Shown here: positions 1,465-39,340 of the stretch, piece by piece
Position numbering within the stretch: the first letter of the stretch is position 1
Layout of the letters: every line of letters starts with the position of its first letter
Assembly (NCBI GenBank): GCA_016200645.1
Contig: JACQEJ010000178.1
Span: 1-39,628 of the forward strand
Origin: Deltaproteobacteria bacterium
GTDB lineage: Bacteria; Desulfobacterota; GWC2-55-46; UBA9637
Direction: 5' to 3'
DNA length: 39,628 nt
Program-made: the position numbers and the translations under genes
Notes under the pieces: generated by a model
The model's input: only the letters and a program-made list of their open reading frames with translations
What the model was told of the DNA's origin: nothing
Databases searched by the model: none

Positions 1465-2055
1465 ATGCAGCATTACATGCCAAAGAGAAAAATAATCATC
1501 ATAGATGATAATACTGACCAACGGTTTGTGTTAAAGGGGTTTTTGACCGACATCGGCTGCGAGGTGATTGGCGAGGGGAAGAGCGGTCTTGAGGCGCTGG
1601 AGCTTATGCAAAAACTCTCTCCGGATGTAATCCTCATGGATATTAAGATGCCGGGCATGGACGGCATTGAGGCTGTGACCGCTATAAATCAATTGAAACC
1701 TGTCCCTATCATAGCCTTTACCGGCAGGCAGGATGCGGAAACCATCAAGCGGGTTGTGGATGCAGGGGTTATGGCATATCTGGTAAAACCGGTAAGAGAA
1801 GAAGAGCTCCTGCCCACCATCGAGCTCGCCATATCAAGATTCAATGAATTCCAGGCCTTAAGCAGGGAAAATCTGGATTTAAAGGAAACCATAGCGGCGC
1901 GAAAGATAATAGAGAGGGCAAAGGGGCTTTTGATGGAAAAGGAAGGGCTGTCAGAGCGAGAGGCGTTTTCCCGCATTCAAAAATTGAGCATGGACAGGAG
2001 AAGGACCATGAAAGAGATTGCGGAGATACTCATTACAGCGCTGGAAGGGAAATAG
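1465..2055 (+). CDS. REC-ANTAR response regulator, RNA-binding antiterminator
   Basis: Two-domain regulator of EutV/NasR-like type. Residues 8-125 form a receiver: acidic pair D14-D15, probable phospho-acceptor D59 in LMDIKMPG, and conserved K108 in LVKPV. After a coiled linker, residues about 138-193 form an ANTAR domain (ERAKGLLMEKEGLSEREAF, then the helix with MDRRRTMKEIAEIL). ANTAR domains bind twin hairpins and prevent formation of an overlapping terminator. Two such leaders occur downstream, at 3054 and 5965, giving likely targets in cis. No histidine kinase partner is in the window. ATG 1465 or 1477 may be the start; neither has a good Shine-Dalgarno sequence, and the sigma-54 start near 1462 would leave almost no leader for 1465. 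Confidence 0.93.
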   Translation: MQHYMPKRKIIIIDDNTDQRFVLKGFLTDIGCEVIGEGKSGLEALELMQKLSPDVILMDIKMPGMDGIEAVTAINQLKPVPIIAFTGRQDAETIKRVVDAGVMAYLVKPVREEELLPTIELAISRFNEFQALSRENLDLKETIAARKIIERAKGLLMEKEGLSEREAFSRIQKLSMDRRRTMKEIAEILITALEGK

Positions 2056-3040: not shown

Positions 3041-3053
3041 AATGTTAAAACTT

Positions 3054-3137
3054 AAGGATACAAAGATGTGTCCTTGTGATTTTAGAATAAGGCAAAGGCG
3101 CCTTTCCCCTGAAAAAGGGATGGTGCCTTTATTTTTT
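3054..3137 (+). promoter_or_regulatory. ANTAR-responsive two-hairpin leader with terminator (copy 1)
   Basis: P1 pairs AAGGATAC (3054-3061) with GTGTCCTT (3068-3075), eight pairs including one U-G, around hexaloop AAAGAT. P2 pairs AAGGC (3089-3093) with GCCTT (3100-3104) around hexaloop AAAGGC. Both loops have A at position 1 and G at position 4, the hallmark of ANTAR targets. The P2 loop and 3' strand (from 3094) also form the 5' arm of a terminator whose 3' arm GGTGCCTTT (3122-3130) is followed by ATTTTTT. P2 and the terminator are therefore mutually exclusive. Confidence 0.85.
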
Positions 3138-3164: not shown

Positions 3165-3956
3165 ATGAAAAAAGTAACAGCAGCGCTGGCAATTGCAACA
3201 GCAATTCTATTTGCAGGAGGATGGAATACGGCAATGGCAACGCCGTCCACCACTTACTGGACGCCTGGAACATCAGACATCCAGCCATACGGGGTATGGC
3301 ATCTCGGTATAGACAATTATTTTACAATAACGACAAAGGCAGGGGAGACTGGCAGCCTTCCGACAGATGTGGGGATTACGGTCGGCGTGCTTCCGTATGA
3401 AAAGATTCAACTGGAGGTCGGCATAGACTTGCTTGAACCAACTACCGAGCCGTCAGAGCCTGTGTATTTTAATGCAAAACTCGGAACCCCGGAAAATGCC
3501 CTTTTTGAAGGCTCGCCTGCCTTAAATATCGGGGTATTCAATGTCGGAACCAAGAGGGACGGCGCCGGGAGGACAGACCAGGACATTATGCACGTGATGA
3601 TCGGGAAGACGCTTCCCATGAACCTGGGCCGTCTCCATGTGGGCGGATATACAGGGAATGACAAGATCCTCGTAGATAAGGACGGCAAGAAGGATAACTC
3701 GGGAGTTATGATCGGCTATGACAAGGGCTTTCTGCCGGCCAAGGATGACAAAGGTGAATACAATAAATGGATATTTGCCGCTGACTATGCCAGCGGGAAA
3801 AACACCATAGGCGGCGGCGGGTTCGGCATGTATTACTTCTTCACAAGGGATATAAGCCTGCTTACCGGACCTGTCTGGTTTAATGAACCTGCGGTGGTAG
3901 CAGGCAATGGCAATATCAAATGGGTCTGGACAACACAACTGGATATAAATTTCTAA
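3165..3956 (+). CDS. Secreted, probably outer-membrane protein under nitrogen control
   Basis: A 263-residue protein starting at ATG 3165 (RBS GGAGGAG at 3151); a longer frame upstream would run through the leader RNA and is rejected. A signal peptide (MKKVTAALAIATAILFAGG, cleavage likely after TAMA) is followed by alternating short hydrophobic and aromatic segments and a terminal LDINF, typical of a small beta-barrel ending in Phe. I do not recognise a specific family. It is the first gene after the sigma-54 promoter and ANTAR leader and precedes glnB-amtB, suggesting outer-membrane passage of a nitrogen compound, but no substrate can be read from the sequence. Confidence 0.75.
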   Translation: MKKVTAALAIATAILFAGGWNTAMATPSTTYWTPGTSDIQPYGVWHLGIDNYFTITTKAGETGSLPTDVGITVGVLPYEKIQLEVGIDLLEPTTEPSEPVYFNAKLGTPENALFEGSPALNIGVFNVGTKRDGAGRTDQDIMHVMIGKTLPMNLGRLHVGGYTGNDKILVDKDGKKDNSGVMIGYDKGFLPAKDDKGEYNKWIFAADYASGKNTIGGGGFGMYYFFTRDISLLTGPVWFNEPAVVAGNGNIKWVWTTQLDINF

Positions 3957-5964: not shown

Positions 5965-6036
5965 AAGATACATCGCAGTATCTTTATATAATAGGCAAAG
6001 GCGCCTTGGGTTTACAAAAACTCAAGGCGCCTTTTT
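5965..6036 (+). promoter_or_regulatory. ANTAR-responsive two-hairpin leader with terminator (copy 2)
   Basis: P1 is a perfect seven-pair stem, AAGATAC/GTATCTT (5965-5971 with 5978-5984), around hexaloop ATCGCA. P2 pairs AGGC (5993-5996) with GCCT (6003-6006) around hexaloop AAAGGC. Both loops carry A1 and G4. The P2 loop begins the terminator 5' arm (5997-6010), which pairs over 14 positions with 6021-6034 and is followed by T-rich sequence. The layout and the P2 loop are the same as in the copy at 3054. It controls nirB. Confidence 0.87.
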
Positions 6037-6058
6037 ATTTTTGGAGGAGGGTAATCTC

Positions 6059-8449
6059 ATGAATACAAAAAAGAGGCTTGTCGTTATAGGCAACGGCATG
6101 GCCGGGGTCGCCTGCGTTGAGGAGATAGTCAGGCTTGACCCGCATAGATACGAGATAACCATCTTCGGAAAAGAGAGGCATCCGAATTATAACAGGGTCT
6201 TGCTCTCACATGTTCTTGCAGGCGAGATGGGTCTCAAGGATATAACCCTGCATCCCTTTGACTGGTATAAGGAGAAGGATATACACCTCAATACGGCATG
6301 CAAGGTAGTGGAATTAAACAGGGGGAGACGTGTTGTTATCACAGAGGATGGTCGGGAGACGCCATACGATAGGCTCATCCTTGCAACAGGTTCCATCCCT
6401 ATCATGCCGCCCATACATGGCATTGATAAGGAGGGTGTCCTTGCCTTCAGGAACATAGAGGATTGCGAAAGGATACAGGAGGCATCCGGCAGGCTTAAGA
6501 GAGCTGTGGTCATTGGCGGCGGCCTCCTGGGGCTTGAGGCAGCGTACGGGATGTCAAGGCTCGGCATGGATGTGACAGTGCTCCATCTTATGGATAGGCT
6601 TATGGAGCGGCAGATAGATGAGGCCTCATCAAACATTTTGAAGGAAGATTTAGAGAGCCGCGGCATAAAGATACTCCTTAATAAGGAGACAGCGGAGATA
6701 CTGGGTGATGAGAAAGTCAGCGGCATACGATTTAAAGACGGCGGGACACTCGGCTGCGACATCGTTGTGGTGGCAATCGGCATTCGGCCTAATAAAGAGC
6801 TTGCAGCATCTTCCGGCCTCTACTGCGAAAAGGGGATTGTGGTGAGCGATACCTTGCAGACCTATGATTCTGCAATATATGCAGTGGGCGAATGTATTCA
6901 GAACAGGGGAAAAACCTTTGGCCTCATTGCGCCTATATTTGAACAGGCGCGTGTCCTTGCCAATCACCTGGCAGGTGATTGTCGTCTTGTATTCAAGGAC
7001 CAGCCTGTGTCAGCCAGGCTCAAGATACCTGATATAGAGCTCTACTCGGCAGGGGCTGTATCTGAAGGGGATGATATAGACACGATAGAGTATATAGACA
7101 GGAAGGCGAAGGTCTATAAGAGGCTCTTTCTCAGGGATAACCGGATACAGGGCATTGTCATGTATGGCGACACACGGGATAGCCAACGGCTCTTTCAGCA
7201 TCTCGTAGATGACAGCGATATATCAGAAAGGCGGAATGCGATCCTCTTTGGCGCAGCCCCAGGACCCTCTGCTGATGCGCTGTCCGGCGATGCGATTATA
7301 TGCAGGTGTAATGGCATAACCAAGGGTGTGATAGTGGATGCCATAGAGAAGAAGGGGCTCTTCACAAGAGAGGATGTGAAACGGGAGACAAAGGCATCAA
7401 GCTCATGCGGAGGGTGCGCAGCCCTCGTGGATCAGATATTGGAGTCGGTGCTGGGTTCAAGTTTTCAGGGGATGGCAAAAGGCATATGTGAATGCACGAA
7501 ATATACACGGGAGGATGTGATTAAGAATATACGGGAGAAGAGACTCCTTTCCGTGAGCGAGGTCATGGAGACCATGGGTTGGGAGACCGTGGGGTGCGAG
7601 CAGTGCAGGCCTGCGCTGAATTACTATGTGTCTATGGTGTGGCCGAAGGAGTATAAGGAAGACGCCACATCGCGGGTTGTAAATGAGAGGGTGCACGCAA
7701 ATATTCAGAAGGATGGGGCATTTTCTGTGGTTCCGAGGATGTACGGCGGTGTTACAAACCCCTATGAACTTAAGAGAATAGCTGATGTGGCTATAAAATA
7801 TAATGTGCCTCTTGTAAAGGTTACCGGGGGACAGAGAATTGACCTCCTCGGTATCACGAGGGAAACCCTGCCAAAGGTCTGGAGGGATCTGGACATGCCT
7901 TCCGGCTTTGCCTACGGAAAGGCGGTGCGAACTGTAAAGACATGCGTTGGCTCGGTCTTTTGCAGATACGGGGTGCAGGATTCTCTGAACATGGGCATAG
8001 CCCTTGAGAAGAATTTCGAAGGGATATGGACGCCTGCAAAGCTAAAGATGGGCGTAAGCGGATGTCCGCGCAATTGCGCTGAGGCGACGATCAAGGATGT
8101 AGGCATCGTGGGGATTACCGGCGGCTGGGATATATTTATTGGCGGATGCGGCGGCATTGATCTCAGGGCGGCTGACCGTCTTTGCGCCGCCAAATCCTCT
8201 GAAGAGGTTGAGGATATTGTAGGGGCATTCCTCCAGCTTTACAGGGAAGATGCAAATTATGGAGAGAGGACATCAAGGTGGGTAGTGCGCACAGGCCTTG
8301 AAGCAATCAGGAAGGCTGTGGTTGAAGATGTGGATACAAGGAGAGGGCTTTGCGCACGGTTTGAACATGCCTTAAACATTGGCGCTGATCCGTGGAAGGA
8401 GAGGATTAAAAGGACAGAGGAGGGTATGGGAGAAGGGCTGCTGCAATGA
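6059..8449 (+). CDS. nirB: Assimilatory NAD(P)H-type nitrite reductase, NirB-like
   Basis: Reduces nitrite to ammonia with siroheme. The 796-residue cytoplasmic protein starts at ATG 6059 behind GGAGGAGGG (6043-6051); the TTG at 6041 is part of the RBS region. Order of domains: FAD-binding Rossmann (GNGMAGVACVEEI), NAD-binding Rossmann (VIGGGLLGLEAAYG, about residue 150), a BFD-like [2Fe-2S] domain (CRCNG at about 415 with SSCGGC), a second Cys-rich segment (CECTKYT... GCEQC), nitrite/sulfite reductase half-domain, then siroheme/[4Fe-4S] ligands TCVGSVFC (629) and SGCPRNC (669). No NirD gene follows; the small subunit is missing here. It overlaps the nitrate reductase gene by ATGA. Confidence 0.93.
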   Translation: MNTKKRLVVIGNGMAGVACVEEIVRLDPHRYEITIFGKERHPNYNRVLLSHVLAGEMGLKDITLHPFDWYKEKDIHLNTACKVVELNRGRRVVITEDGRETPYDRLILATGSIPIMPPIHGIDKEGVLAFRNIEDCERIQEASGRLKRAVVIGGGLLGLEAAYGMSRLGMDVTVLHLMDRLMERQIDEASSNILKEDLESRGIKILLNKETAEILGDEKVSGIRFKDGGTLGCDIVVVAIGIRPNKELAASSGLYCEKGIVVSDTLQTYDSAIYAVGECIQNRGKTFGLIAPIFEQARVLANHLAGDCRLVFKDQPVSARLKIPDIELYSAGAVSEGDDIDTIEYIDRKAKVYKRLFLRDNRIQGIVMYGDTRDSQRLFQHLVDDSDISERRNAILFGAAPGPSADALSGDAIICRCNGITKGVIVDAIEKKGLFTREDVKRETKASSSCGGCAALVDQILESVLGSSFQGMAKGICECTKYTREDVIKNIREKRLLSVSEVMETMGWETVGCEQCRPALNYYVSMVWPKEYKEDATSRVVNERVHANIQKDGAFSVVPRMYGGVTNPYELKRIADVAIKYNVPLVKVTGGQRIDLLGITRETLPKVWRDLDMPSGFAYGKAVRTVKTCVGSVFCRYGVQDSLNMGIALEKNFEGIWTPAKLKMGVSGCPRNCAEATIKDVGIVGITGGWDIFIGGCGGIDLRAADRLCAAKSSEEVEDIVGAFLQLYREDANYGERTSRWVVRTGLEAIRKAVVEDVDTRRGLCARFEHALNIGADPWKERIKRTEEGMGEGLLQ

Positions 8450-23205: not shown

Positions 23206-24009
23206 ATGAGTGATATAGAAACAATTTTACTCTCCATAACCCTTGCAATAGGTATAATCCTTTCAGGACTCCTCTTTTTCTGCAAGGATGCGACGAGGAA
23301 ATTCTATCTTTCAATTGCCTCGGCTATTCTCCTCGTTGAAGGCGCCTATATAGGCATCAGATGGTTTGATACAGGCCATCCGCCTATGTTCGGAACCTTT
23401 GAAGCCACACTCACGGCATCGTGGATACTCATTCTGCTTTCAGTTTTCATTGACAGAAAGGAGAGATTTGCGGGGTTTATCATCCCCTTTGCCCTGCTTA
23501 CGCTCTTATATGGTTTAAAATTTGACAGAAGCGGCAAACCGCTCATTATATCTGAGCAGAGCTACTGGGTCTATTTTCATGCCCTCTTTGCGTGGATAGC
23601 GTATGGCTTTTATACATTTTCTTTTGCAGGGGCAGCGCTATCAATTATTCAGAAGAAACCGGCATCGGATAGTCAGAGAGAGGCTCTGGATGAATTTATC
23701 TATAGAATGCTTTTGAACGGTTTCCTGGCCCAAACCATCATGTTTGTCCTTGGCTCATATTATTCCATACGCTTGCACGGCAGCTGGTGGGTATGGGATC
23801 CGGTTGAATATCTTTTTGTGGTTTCCTGGTGTCTTTATGCGCTGCCCATACATGGAAGGATATTATACGGCTGGGGGGCAAAGAGGGTTGCGTGGTTGAC
23901 TGTGTTGGCAATGGCCGGGACGATGCTTCTCTACTGGGGCCTTATATATTTCCCTTTCGCAACCTATCACATCTTTGACACAGACATTAAGAGCCATTAT
24001 CCAAGTTAG
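23206..24009 (+). CDS. ccsA: Cytochrome c assembly protein, CcsA/CcmC superfamily
   Basis: A 267-residue polytopic inner-membrane haem-handling protein with about eight transmembrane helices. The signature tryptophan-rich periplasmic motif is GSWWVWDPVEYLFVVSW (WWD domain), flanked by conserved His candidates in WVYFHALFAW and LPIHGRILYG. CcsA-type proteins, with a ResB/CcsB partner not seen here, attach haem to CXXCH motifs of exported apocytochromes. This fits the cytochrome genes that follow on the same strand. The start ATG 23206 lacks a clear Shine-Dalgarno sequence. Confidence 0.88.
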   Translation: MSDIETILLSITLAIGIILSGLLFFCKDATRKFYLSIASAILLVEGAYIGIRWFDTGHPPMFGTFEATLTASWILILLSVFIDRKERFAGFIIPFALLTLLYGLKFDRSGKPLIISEQSYWVYFHALFAWIAYGFYTFSFAGAALSIIQKKPASDSQREALDEFIYRMLLNGFLAQTIMFVLGSYYSIRLHGSWWVWDPVEYLFVVSWCLYALPIHGRILYGWGAKRVAWLTVLAMAGTMLLYWGLIYFPFATYHIFDTDIKSHYPS

Positions 24010-24054
24010 ATGCAAGTTAAGACTAAAAACCTCCGCATTTGTCCTAAATTCCTC

Positions 24055-24084
24055 TTGACATTGACAATAAAAATTTGCTAATTT
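24055..24084 (+). promoter_or_regulatory. Sigma-70-type promoter of the cytochrome cluster
   Basis: TTGACA (24055-24060), 18-base spacer, TAATTT (24079-24084); a second TTGACA immediately follows the first. Predicted start near 24091, ten bases before the structured leader. Confidence 0.6.
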
Positions 24085-24100
24085 TACAGCTAAATAGACT

Positions 24101-24222
24101 GTCAACTGCTGACGAGGGTAGTTGACTTTAAGGTAACGGCTGCCTTAAATTGTAGAGTAAGCAATTGACCTTGCTAACGCAATCATAATACATTATTGCC
24201 CTACGGTTTAAGGTTTTTTTTT
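24101..24222 (+). promoter_or_regulatory. Structured attenuator leader of unknown class
   Basis: Hairpin 1 pairs GTCAACTGCT (24101-24110) with GGTAGTTGAC (24117-24126), ten pairs with two U-G, loop GACGAG. Hairpin 2 follows with no gap: TTTAAGGTA (24127-24135) with TGCCTTAAA (24141-24149), loop ACGGC. Competing with hairpin 2 is a 13-pair stem of CCTTAAATTGTAG (24143-24155) with CTACGGTTTAAGG (24201-24213), enclosing two small hairpins (AGCAA/TTGCT and GCAATCAT/ATTATTGC) and followed by nine T (24214-24222), an intrinsic terminator. The mutually exclusive arms indicate a riboswitch-like or protein-controlled attenuator. I could not match it to a known class. Confidence 0.68.
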
Positions 24223-24311
24223 AAGCAAGAGAAAAATTCTGCTTATGTCTTACACTTTATAAAATGCATAGAAACCAAAGCTATAATTAAACTATCGTTT
24301 AAGAGGCTTGC

Positions 24312-25739
24312 ATGACCTGTATTAAAAGGCCCATTTTTCTTTTTATTGCCCTCTTTTCTTTAATATTTATTTCCTGCGAAAAGCTGTTGGTTGAACCCTC
24401 TTTACCTCCCTCTAGTAGTACTTCCAGGTTGCTCCTTTATATGCATTCAACTTCTTTTACCCCCCCGGATATAACCTTTGTCATATCCGATATTAAGCTT
24501 CAGGCCGAAGATGACAGGTGGATAAACCTGGCCGATGGCCCGATAGATATAAGCGCTGCTGCATTGGTTGACAGGCAGATACTCTTAAAGGAGGCGGCTG
24601 TAACCCCCGGGTTGTATAAGGGCATAAAACTTACCATCTCCACTGCATATATGATGGGGAGAAGCGGCAATGTAAATTTTGCGCTTCCACAACCCGGCGG
24701 AGAGGTTGCGTTAAAGTCAAATATCAGTCTGAAGCCAAGAGACAGTTTTGTAGCATGTCTTGCATGGAACCCGGAAAAATCTCTTGAAAAAGGATATCTG
24801 TTTCAACCTTCCATAGAAGTAGAGCCTCAGATACCTTCGGCGAGAGAACTGCTTTTATTCATATCAAACAGTGCATCAAACTACATATCTGTCATAGACA
24901 GAAGCCTCGAAAGGGTTATTGGCGCCGTGACCGTTGGCGACAGGCCAATGGGTATGGTATTGAATGCCACAAAGGACAGACTGTATGTTGTAAACTCCGG
25001 CTCAAGAACCATCTCTATCATAGATACAACACAATTTTTTGTGCTGGATACAATCCAGCTTACGGCGGGAATAGAACCGACCGATATAGCGATTATACCT
25101 GATGATAAAAATTCAATCGAAGGCAAGCTCTATATCACAAACCGTCTTTCGAACGATGTTACTGTGGTGAGCACGACAACAAAGCGCGTGGTAACTACCA
25201 TCGCTGTTGGAACTTATCCTTCTGCCATTGCGGCTGACACGGTGAGAAAAGAGATTTATGTAACCAATAAATTATCCAACAACATGAGCATAATAAGCGC
25301 CATGGACAATTCGCTGGTTGCCAATATTGCCGTGGATAACAGACCGATGGGTATTGTGGTGGGCAAGGATAAGCTCTATGTATTTAACGAAGGCTCTAAC
25401 AGGATATCTGTCATATCCCCCTCGTTAAGAAAGGTGGTGTCAACCATCTCTGTGGAAGGGCCGCCCAGAAGAGGAATGCAGGGATTCTCCGACCAGCTCT
25501 TTGTTGTAAATACAGCCGCTGATACCCTCACATTTTTAAACGCCCAGGATGTTGCTACAAGGACTATTCCAGTGGGGAATAAACCGATAGGTCTTGCAGG
25601 CGATGAAAAAAGGAATCGCCTTTATATAACAAATCTTGGGGATAATACAGTTTCTCTCATTGACCCTATAGGGGAAAGAAAATTGAAAGAGCTCTTTGTG
25701 GGAAGGAGTCCATACGGAGCGCTCTTGCTGGAAAGGTGA
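24312..25739 (+). CDS. Lipoprotein with YVTN-type beta-propeller
   Basis: A 475-residue lipoprotein (lipobox LIFISC, Cys22). Residues about 35-175 resemble a DUF4382-like beta-sandwich (LLLYMHSTSFTPPDITFVIS, GPIDISAAAL, GLYKGIKLTIS). Residues about 185-475 hold seven or so YVTN/NHL-like propeller blades: NYISVIDRSLERVIGAVTVG, RTISIIDTTQFFVL, KLYITNRLSNDVTVVSTTTK, KEIYVTNKLSNNMSIISAMD. RBS AAGAGG. It is the first gene after the attenuator. Role unknown; propellers of this kind are common at cell surfaces and next to extracellular cytochromes. Confidence 0.85.
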   Translation: MTCIKRPIFLFIALFSLIFISCEKLLVEPSLPPSSSTSRLLLYMHSTSFTPPDITFVISDIKLQAEDDRWINLADGPIDISAAALVDRQILLKEAAVTPGLYKGIKLTISTAYMMGRSGNVNFALPQPGGEVALKSNISLKPRDSFVACLAWNPEKSLEKGYLFQPSIEVEPQIPSARELLLFISNSASNYISVIDRSLERVIGAVTVGDRPMGMVLNATKDRLYVVNSGSRTISIIDTTQFFVLDTIQLTAGIEPTDIAIIPDDKNSIEGKLYITNRLSNDVTVVSTTTKRVVTTIAVGTYPSAIAADTVRKEIYVTNKLSNNMSIISAMDNSLVANIAVDNRPMGIVVGKDKLYVFNEGSNRISVISPSLRKVVSTISVEGPPRRGMQGFSDQLFVVNTAADTLTFLNAQDVATRTIPVGNKPIGLAGDEKRNRLYITNLGDNTVSLIDPIGERKLKELFVGRSPYGALLLER

Positions 25740-38639: not shown

Positions 38640-39340
38640 GGCAATTTTTTTATGTCTGCATTGCTCTCTCAGCGATGATAATTTTTGTTGGCGGCTGCAC
38701 AAAAAATATTAAGGAAGCAAGCGAGAGTCCAGGATTAGATACCATACCGTTTTATCCCAAGAATTCCTCTGCCTTTGACACCAAGGCGGCCCTCAAGGCC
38801 CTTGAAGAGGAAAAAAAAGCAGAAGAGCAGAGAAAGGCGGGATTTGTTGAAGAGATAAAGCAAAGGGTTGAACAAAGCGCCCCTGATTTAAGGATAGACC
38901 CTTGGATTCCGCCTGCTGTTCGTAAGCCGGAAGAGCTTCCTAAAGCCCTCAGAGGGTTTCCAAAGGATGCATACGGCTACCCTGATTGGGTTGCTGCTGT
39001 AAGGGAAGGGATTATAAAGCCCAGAGGCTCTCTTGCAGAAGGGGTTGAAGAGGCGCAGGGGGGGGCTGTTTTTGATGAGGATATCCTGTTTGAGATAAAT
39101 GACAGATTGATGGCTAATGTCCTCTTCCCGCACAGCATACATAACTATTGGTTGTCCTGCAAAAACTGCCATCCCTCCATATTCATAGATAAAAAGGGGG
39201 CGAATAAATTTACCATGTACGATATCTGGAACGGGAAGTACTGCGGCAGATGCCATGGGAAGGTGGCATTCCAGCCAAAAGGGTTTGAAAATTGCCAGAG
39301 GTGCCATAAGGTCAAGAAGAAAACCATGGGTATAAAATAG
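38636..39340 (+). CDS. Trihaem cytochrome c lipoprotein
   Basis: A 234-residue lipoprotein (lipobox FVGGC, Cys21). A charged helical linker (LKALEEEKKAEEQRKAGF) and a Pro-rich segment precede a C-terminal three-haem cytochrome c3-like domain: HSIHNYWLSCKNCHPSIF, KYCGRCHGKVAFQP, NCQRCHKVKK. The pattern FPHSIHNYWLSCKNCHP resembles the three-haem domain family found beside extracellular cytochromes. Last gene of the cluster in the window; no terminator is obvious before the repeat at 39380. Confidence 0.9.
   Translation: MRQFFYVCIALSAMIIFVGGCTKNIKEASESPGLDTIPFYPKNSSAFDTKAALKALEEEKKAEEQRKAGFVEEIKQRVEQSAPDLRIDPWIPPAVRKPEELPKALRGFPKDAYGYPDWVAAVREGIIKPRGSLAEGVEEAQGGAVFDEDILFEINDRLMANVLFPHSIHNYWLSCKNCHPSIFIDKKGANKFTMYDIWNGKYCGRCHGKVAFQPKGFENCQRCHKVKKKTMGIK

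Follow-up and report, generated by a model that had tools for sequence, protein, structure and literature searches.

A tandem-hairpin leader attenuator ahead of an electron-transfer gene cluster, probably a variant of ANTAR-type attenuation

The window, which is the whole stretch of 39,628 nucleotides analysed here, carries a structured RNA leader between a cytochrome c assembly gene (23206-24009) and the gene of a YVTN beta-propeller lipoprotein. The lipoprotein gene heads a cluster of outer-membrane barrel and multiheme cytochrome genes that extends to about position 39340. The barrel is named from its composition and position and returns no Pfam match, and the window's own target is neither an OmcS nor an OmcE gene. 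The features discussed below are the following.

1465-2055, forward strand: canonical ANTAR response regulator (motif SMDRRRTM), assigned by Pfam Response_reg and ANTAR and by EutV alignment
24055-24084, forward strand: leader promoter, TTGACA (24055-24060), 18 bases, TAATTT (24079-24084), assigned from the sequence
24101-24126, forward strand: P1, the first hairpin, assigned by folding and by covariation of P1 in relatives
24127-24149, forward strand: P2, the antiterminator hairpin, assigned by folding and family alignments
24142-24155, forward strand: terminator 5' arm, overlapping the P2 3' arm, assigned by folding
24201-24214, forward strand: terminator 3' arm, with the T run at 24214-24222, assigned by folding
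24312-25739, forward strand: YVTN beta-propeller lipoprotein, the first controlled gene, assigned from ORFs, protein families and orthologues in relatives

Folding resolves the leader into two abutting hairpins and a branched terminator with nine T, as the initial annotation had described it from the letters. P1, GUCAACUGCU[GACGAG]GGUAGUUGAC, comprises 10 bp (-13.2 kcal/mol) and exposes a six-base loop, GACGAG (24111-24116), closed by a U-G pair and with its fourth base, G4, at 24114. P2, UUUAAGGU[AACGGCU]GCCUUAAA (-7.3 kcal/mol), abuts P1; its loop AACGGCU (24135-24141), also closed by U-G and with G4 at 24138, has seven bases, or five if A24135 and U24141 pair. The branched terminator spans 24142-24214, where GCCUUAAAUUGUAG (24142-24155) pairs with CUACGGUUUAAGG-U (24201-24214); its stem contains 14 pairs, one more than first counted, encloses two inner hairpins (-23.2 kcal/mol in total) and is followed by T9 at 24214-24222. 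Since CCUUAAA belongs to P2 as well as to the terminator, the two are mutually exclusive, as had been proposed, and in folds of the growing chain both hairpins persist up to the completion of the terminator 3' arm near 24214, when the structure flips. The whole leader folds at -37.6 kcal/mol, where dinucleotide shuffles average -24.1 +/- 3.4 (z -3.9; 0/200 equal it), and R3, a covariance model built from 16 related leaders that exclude the window and include two other leaders of its own genome, independently matches 24104-24148 (42.7 bits, E 2.6e-10; next-best match in the window, E 0.08), so that the structure lies far beyond chance. The promoter, with an expected transcription start at ~24091, is assigned from its spacing and from the matching layout of related leaders, which present TTGACA and TAAT.T in equivalent places; a simple promoter scan misses it because its -10 is weak. 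As the promoter begins only after the cytochrome c assembly gene has ended, the terminator is the leader's and not that of the upstream gene. The stretch 24101-24222 is thereby confirmed as a leader attenuator. Of note, a long promoter sequence, CTTGACA..AAAWTAAAATYTGTTAAT, is common to seven leaders (G000:C189, G000:C90, G001:C30, G012:C21, G044:C112, G049:C157 and G054:C195), and its A/T spacer, itself conserved, is a possible target of a DNA-binding regulator.

The element is a member of a recurring RNA family that has no entry in Rfam. A cmscan of positions 23800-24500 with the whole Rfam library, at E up to 10, reports no guanidine-II, GEMM or other riboswitch match, and scans of a set of family members at permissive cut-offs report nothing but matches far below the curated scores; without a match to a known class, the attenuator keeps its initial status as unassigned. 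A BLASTN-type search with the leader DNA finds only itself, and near-exact copies of GAGGTGATGATGCCTC in relatives comprise true leaders together with coding matches, e.g. in pilB-like genes. A loose tandem-tip pattern, run on 395 genomes, was swamped by chance matches in GC-rich genomes, and a hexaloop scan over one third of the window's own genome yields one family member. The combined hairpin and terminator pattern matches in 15 of 63 genomes of the window's class, with none in the reversed control; multiheme cytochromes are among the downstream genes, several of the matched leaders carry an upstream twin hairpin with an identical tip, and the pooled hairpins covary (0.45 versus 0.17 shuffled). 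A two-hairpin covariance model with six seeds (R1) was run on 62 class genomes. Covariation supports the pairing: 0.43 versus 0.17 shuffled (0/500) for a 24-hit alignment, and 0.40 versus 0.15 for the 16 leaders without the window. Both hairpins, as aligned, covary across the family. The window's own genome holds three strong members (C189, C90 and the window, the last with an R3 E-value of 1.3e-8 over the whole genome) and a weak one, C198; the window is a seed of R1 and of a further model, R2, and its scores with these two are therefore circular. The R2 search of the phylum gives one strong match outside the class, in genome G155; the other out-of-class R2 matches examined appear to be chance. 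Family members space their hairpins 20-32 bases from tip to tip. Most have a terminator, and several are without a clear one, which counts against an ANTAR interpretation.

Two other accounts, ribosome-linked attenuation via a short leader ORF and a plain terminator or small RNA with no regulatory function, are in our view very improbable. Some single-hairpin leaders do read GAGGUGAUGAUGCC, resembling a Shine-Dalgarno sequence with a start codon; however, the frames are not conserved, the one in the window would end after two codons (CTG CCT TAA), and leader-peptide control is set aside for the lack of conservation. Against these accounts, the P1 tip is repeated on differing, covarying stems, a promoter separates the terminator from the upstream gene, and the layout recurs behind different upstream genes.

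At E<=0.02, R1 gives 12 non-seed matches within the class of the window; 11 of these lie ahead of a gene encoding four or more CXXCH motifs, mostly a homologue of OmcS or OmcE, the exception being G015:C14. For comparison, among 354 ORFs of 200 aa or more sampled from own-genome DNA, 2 are multiheme. This figure refers to the fixed threshold (a 15/17 set was chosen by eye), beyond which R1 matches are mixed with chance. The own-genome members C189, C90 and C198 each precede multiheme cytochromes. When the hexaheme proteins are combined into a profile, it matches the OmcS filament entries 6ef8/6nef (9.8e-22), the single sequence as query giving no match at all, and the tetraheme proteins match 7tfs (1.4e-23), which we take to be the OmcE filament. 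TPR and NHL-repeat genes recur alongside these cytochrome genes. These findings support a role of the element family in controlling electron-transfer cytochromes. GEMM (c-di-GMP-I / cGAMP) riboswitches occur ahead of cytochrome genes in other bacteria and are likewise leader RNAs in front of electron-transfer cytochromes; the element differs in its unrelated architecture, and the absence of GEMM features noted initially agrees with the absence of any GEMM match at E up to 10. The layout varies at three loci of the family. In G011:C233 (L229/L072, ~6036-6108), an OmcS-type gene is preceded by three hairpins in a row that share their tip: GTT[GATGAT]GAC, GGGT[GATGGC]GCCT and CGGGAT[GATGGA]GTCCCG. 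In G006:C45:50621-50807 (L256), two complete elements 140 bases apart, each with a promoter-like sequence, stand ahead of one OmcS-type gene. In G155:C222:5662-5764 (L262/L328), the element is without a terminator and the GCCTC arm of P2 could pair with the Shine-Dalgarno sequence GAGGAGG of an OmcE-type gene, which suggests translational control there.

Orthologues of the YVTN lipoprotein occur in about 20 relatives, and a scan of genome contigs with the lipoprotein as query finds two loci. Many orthologous leaders contain a hairpin GAGGU[6]GCCUC in which the 3' arm doubles as the beginning of an intrinsic terminator; some have the P2-type hairpin alone, which speaks against ANTAR control. 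Two congeners (L010 and L011) have no such attenuator ahead of the gene, which therefore is readily gained or lost. The initial annotation held that lack of conservation of the alternative pairing in relatives would refute a switch; such a lack is found locally, in these two, and the family is conserved elsewhere in the class. Single-hairpin attenuators with the same tip also stand ahead of a gene that by eye resembles a PocR/GAF-like sensor (L060/L076, G004:C93) and of PpiC/SurA-like peptidyl-prolyl isomerase genes (L077 and L079, G003:C61 and G007:C97). A further one, GGGT[GATGAA]GCCC with a terminator, lies at ~613 of the L071 locus (G023:C6), 0.9 kb upstream of the first.

Several features of the leader are those of ANTAR targets. 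The published architecture consists of tandem hairpins, the second of which overlaps the terminator, and in the eut system neither of the two is dispensable (PMC3369931). For the loop, the published rule requires a hexaloop with A1 and G4. In the EutV-RNA structure, G4 makes the sole base-specific contact while A1 is uncontacted, and the minimal target has been redefined as a single hexaloop (PMC8934654). The leader has P1 and P2 in tandem, with the GCCUUAAA arm common to P2 and the terminator. G occupies position 4 in all 20 P1 hexaloops and all 21 P2 loops aligned, a count partly ascertained since the seeds were chosen by G4, and A occupies position 2 equally throughout (20/20 and 21/21). 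The P1 loop has six bases in 20 of 21 members, with U, C, G and A at its third position in 11, 7, 1 and 1 of the 20 loops, and a U-G pair closes all P1 and most P2 loops. Position 1 of the P1 loop is G in 19 of 20, contrary to the rule and to an ANTAR assignment; A1 is present in 5 of the 21 P2 loops, the window's included. The P2 loop has six bases in 11 members and seven in 10, among them the window, the larger size being a further point against. In these alignments, the family keeps G4 but not A1, and the statement that its loops break the ANTAR rule holds for the A1 half only. Compared with the ANTAR leaders EutV-eutP, NasR-nasF and AmiR-amiE (PMC3369931, PMC8934654), the element shares two tandem hairpins, loops with G4 (six-base in P1), a P2 arm in common with an intrinsic terminator, and an ANTAR response regulator in the genome. 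It differs in its loop (G1-A2-Y3-G4-R5-N6, closed by U-G, versus A1..G4), in a P2 loop that often has seven bases, in leaders that may be single-hairpin, in its targets, which are nanowire-type and other multiheme cytochromes, and in a linked ANTAR subtype without the equivalent of EutV Met172.

The same loops could be read as those of a ligand riboswitch: the two AYGR loops would dock in the manner of guanidine-II, with P2 favoured over the terminator by a bound metabolite or second messenger. We regard this explanation as unlikely. AYGR loops in tandem hairpins, their fairly constant tip-to-tip spacing and Y-G loop pairs that could kiss are all in its favor, and guanidine-II (mini-ykkC) has two hairpins with ACGR or similar loops. 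The resemblance noted initially does not survive the family alignment: the loop ends are unable to pair in 8 of 20 P1 loops, losing the tetraloop geometry, and the loop C is mostly U, sometimes G or A. The family keeps neither the Watson-Crick closing pair nor the invariant C of guanidine-II, it is without guanidine-related genes, and no Rfam riboswitch matches at permissive cut-offs. Single-hairpin leaders occur, and a riboswitch would leave the linkage to an ANTAR subtype, described below, unexplained. It is similarly improbable that the element represents a new RNA class directly sensing a redox- or respiration-related small molecule and jointly controlling OmcS-/OmcE-type nanowire cytochromes, the nearby ANTAR genes being an accident of gene order.

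Every one of the 62 class genomes searched encodes ANTAR domains, the window's own genome two of them, and the 14 controls encode none; as the domain is universal in the class, its presence alone cannot discriminate there. Two types are apparent, a canonical one with the motif SM[DN]xR and one with SQxENKK, which, aligned by eye, differs at the residues matching EutV Met172, Asn173 and Arg175. The SQxENKK type lies 0.6 kb from the element in G005, 1.6 kb in G006, 1.7 kb in G010 and, outside the class, 3.9 kb in G155. This linkage is confined to four genomes, of which two belong to a single family, a small number that counts against ANTAR control. The G155 congeners G121 and G182 return no ANTAR match, and none of the other out-of-class ANTARs examined is of the SQxENKK subtype. 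In the window's own genome, the SQxENKK gene (G000:C84) neighbours a TPR gene like those of the cytochrome clusters, and it has no adjacent element, again a point against.

The canonical protein of the window (1465-2055) is the other candidate. It shares the contig with the element and retains the equivalents of EutV Met172 and Arg175. However, it is grouped with P-II, amtB and nitrite/nitrate reductase genes, the site of canonical A1/G4 leaders, and the type found near the element in the four genomes is SQxENKK. We judge that it serves the nitrogen cluster and not the cytochrome leader, and its action on the latter in place of the SQxENKK paralogue is quite improbable. Near amtB, class genomes holding the element also have dual hairpins of the canonical A1/G4 kind, complete with terminators. 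Two such leaders with overlapping terminators lie in the window itself: AAGATAC[ATCGCA]GTATCTT with AGGC[AAAGGC]GCCT at 5965-6036, preceding a nirB-like gene at 6041 and a molybdopterin oxidoreductase, and AAGGATAC[AAAGAT]GTGTCCTT with AAGGC[AAAGGC]GCCTT at 3053-3137, preceding an unassigned gene near 3167. In the DNA examined, a dual hairpin with a terminator occurs with A1/G4 in 8 cases and with A2/G4 in 10, two cases being common to both, versus 0-5 for each of the other eight combinations, counts that serve only as a consistency check and not as a statistic because that DNA was partly selected.

The leader is best read, with a probability of about three in four, as a transcription attenuator of the ANTAR type that uses a variant loop code and whose regulator is most likely of the SQxENKK subtype. 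Since A1 is largely missing from the loops and binding is something we infer, it is described as working like an ANTAR target and not as a confirmed member. The initial proposal of a new switch for electron-transfer genes stands insofar as the family precedes cytochromes; the step to a new kind of switch is unsupported, because G4, the six-base size of the P1 loop, tandem layout, the overlap of P2 with the terminator, and the presence and linkage of ANTAR genes fit the known mechanism. By default, the polymerase would make P1 and P2, the longer terminator would displace P2 through the common GCCUUAAA arm, and transcription would stop at T9. An active, presumably phosphorylated, dimeric ANTAR response regulator, most likely the SQxENKK protein of G000:C84, would bind the U-G-closed loops, P1 then P2, read the exposed G4 and hold P2 until the polymerase has passed, which would allow expression of the electron-transfer cluster. 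OmcS-/OmcE-type genes that carry the same leader element would be turned on by the same signal.

The element thus probably extends ANTAR-type attenuation, in a new form, to the control of extracellular electron transfer. A literature search, with subscription journals and preprints mostly outside its scope, found no paper joining ANTAR with OmcS or with multiheme cytochromes. The finding bears on when bacteria build extracellular cytochrome filaments: a single RNA code, U[GAYGRN]G, together with a single regulator subtype, is indicated for OmcS-/OmcE-type genes across many uncultured relatives. A further suggestion is that two ANTAR paralogues in one cell may read two loop codes, A1/G4 at nitrogen genes and G1A2/G4 at cytochromes, which, if true, would widen the rule for finding ANTAR targets.
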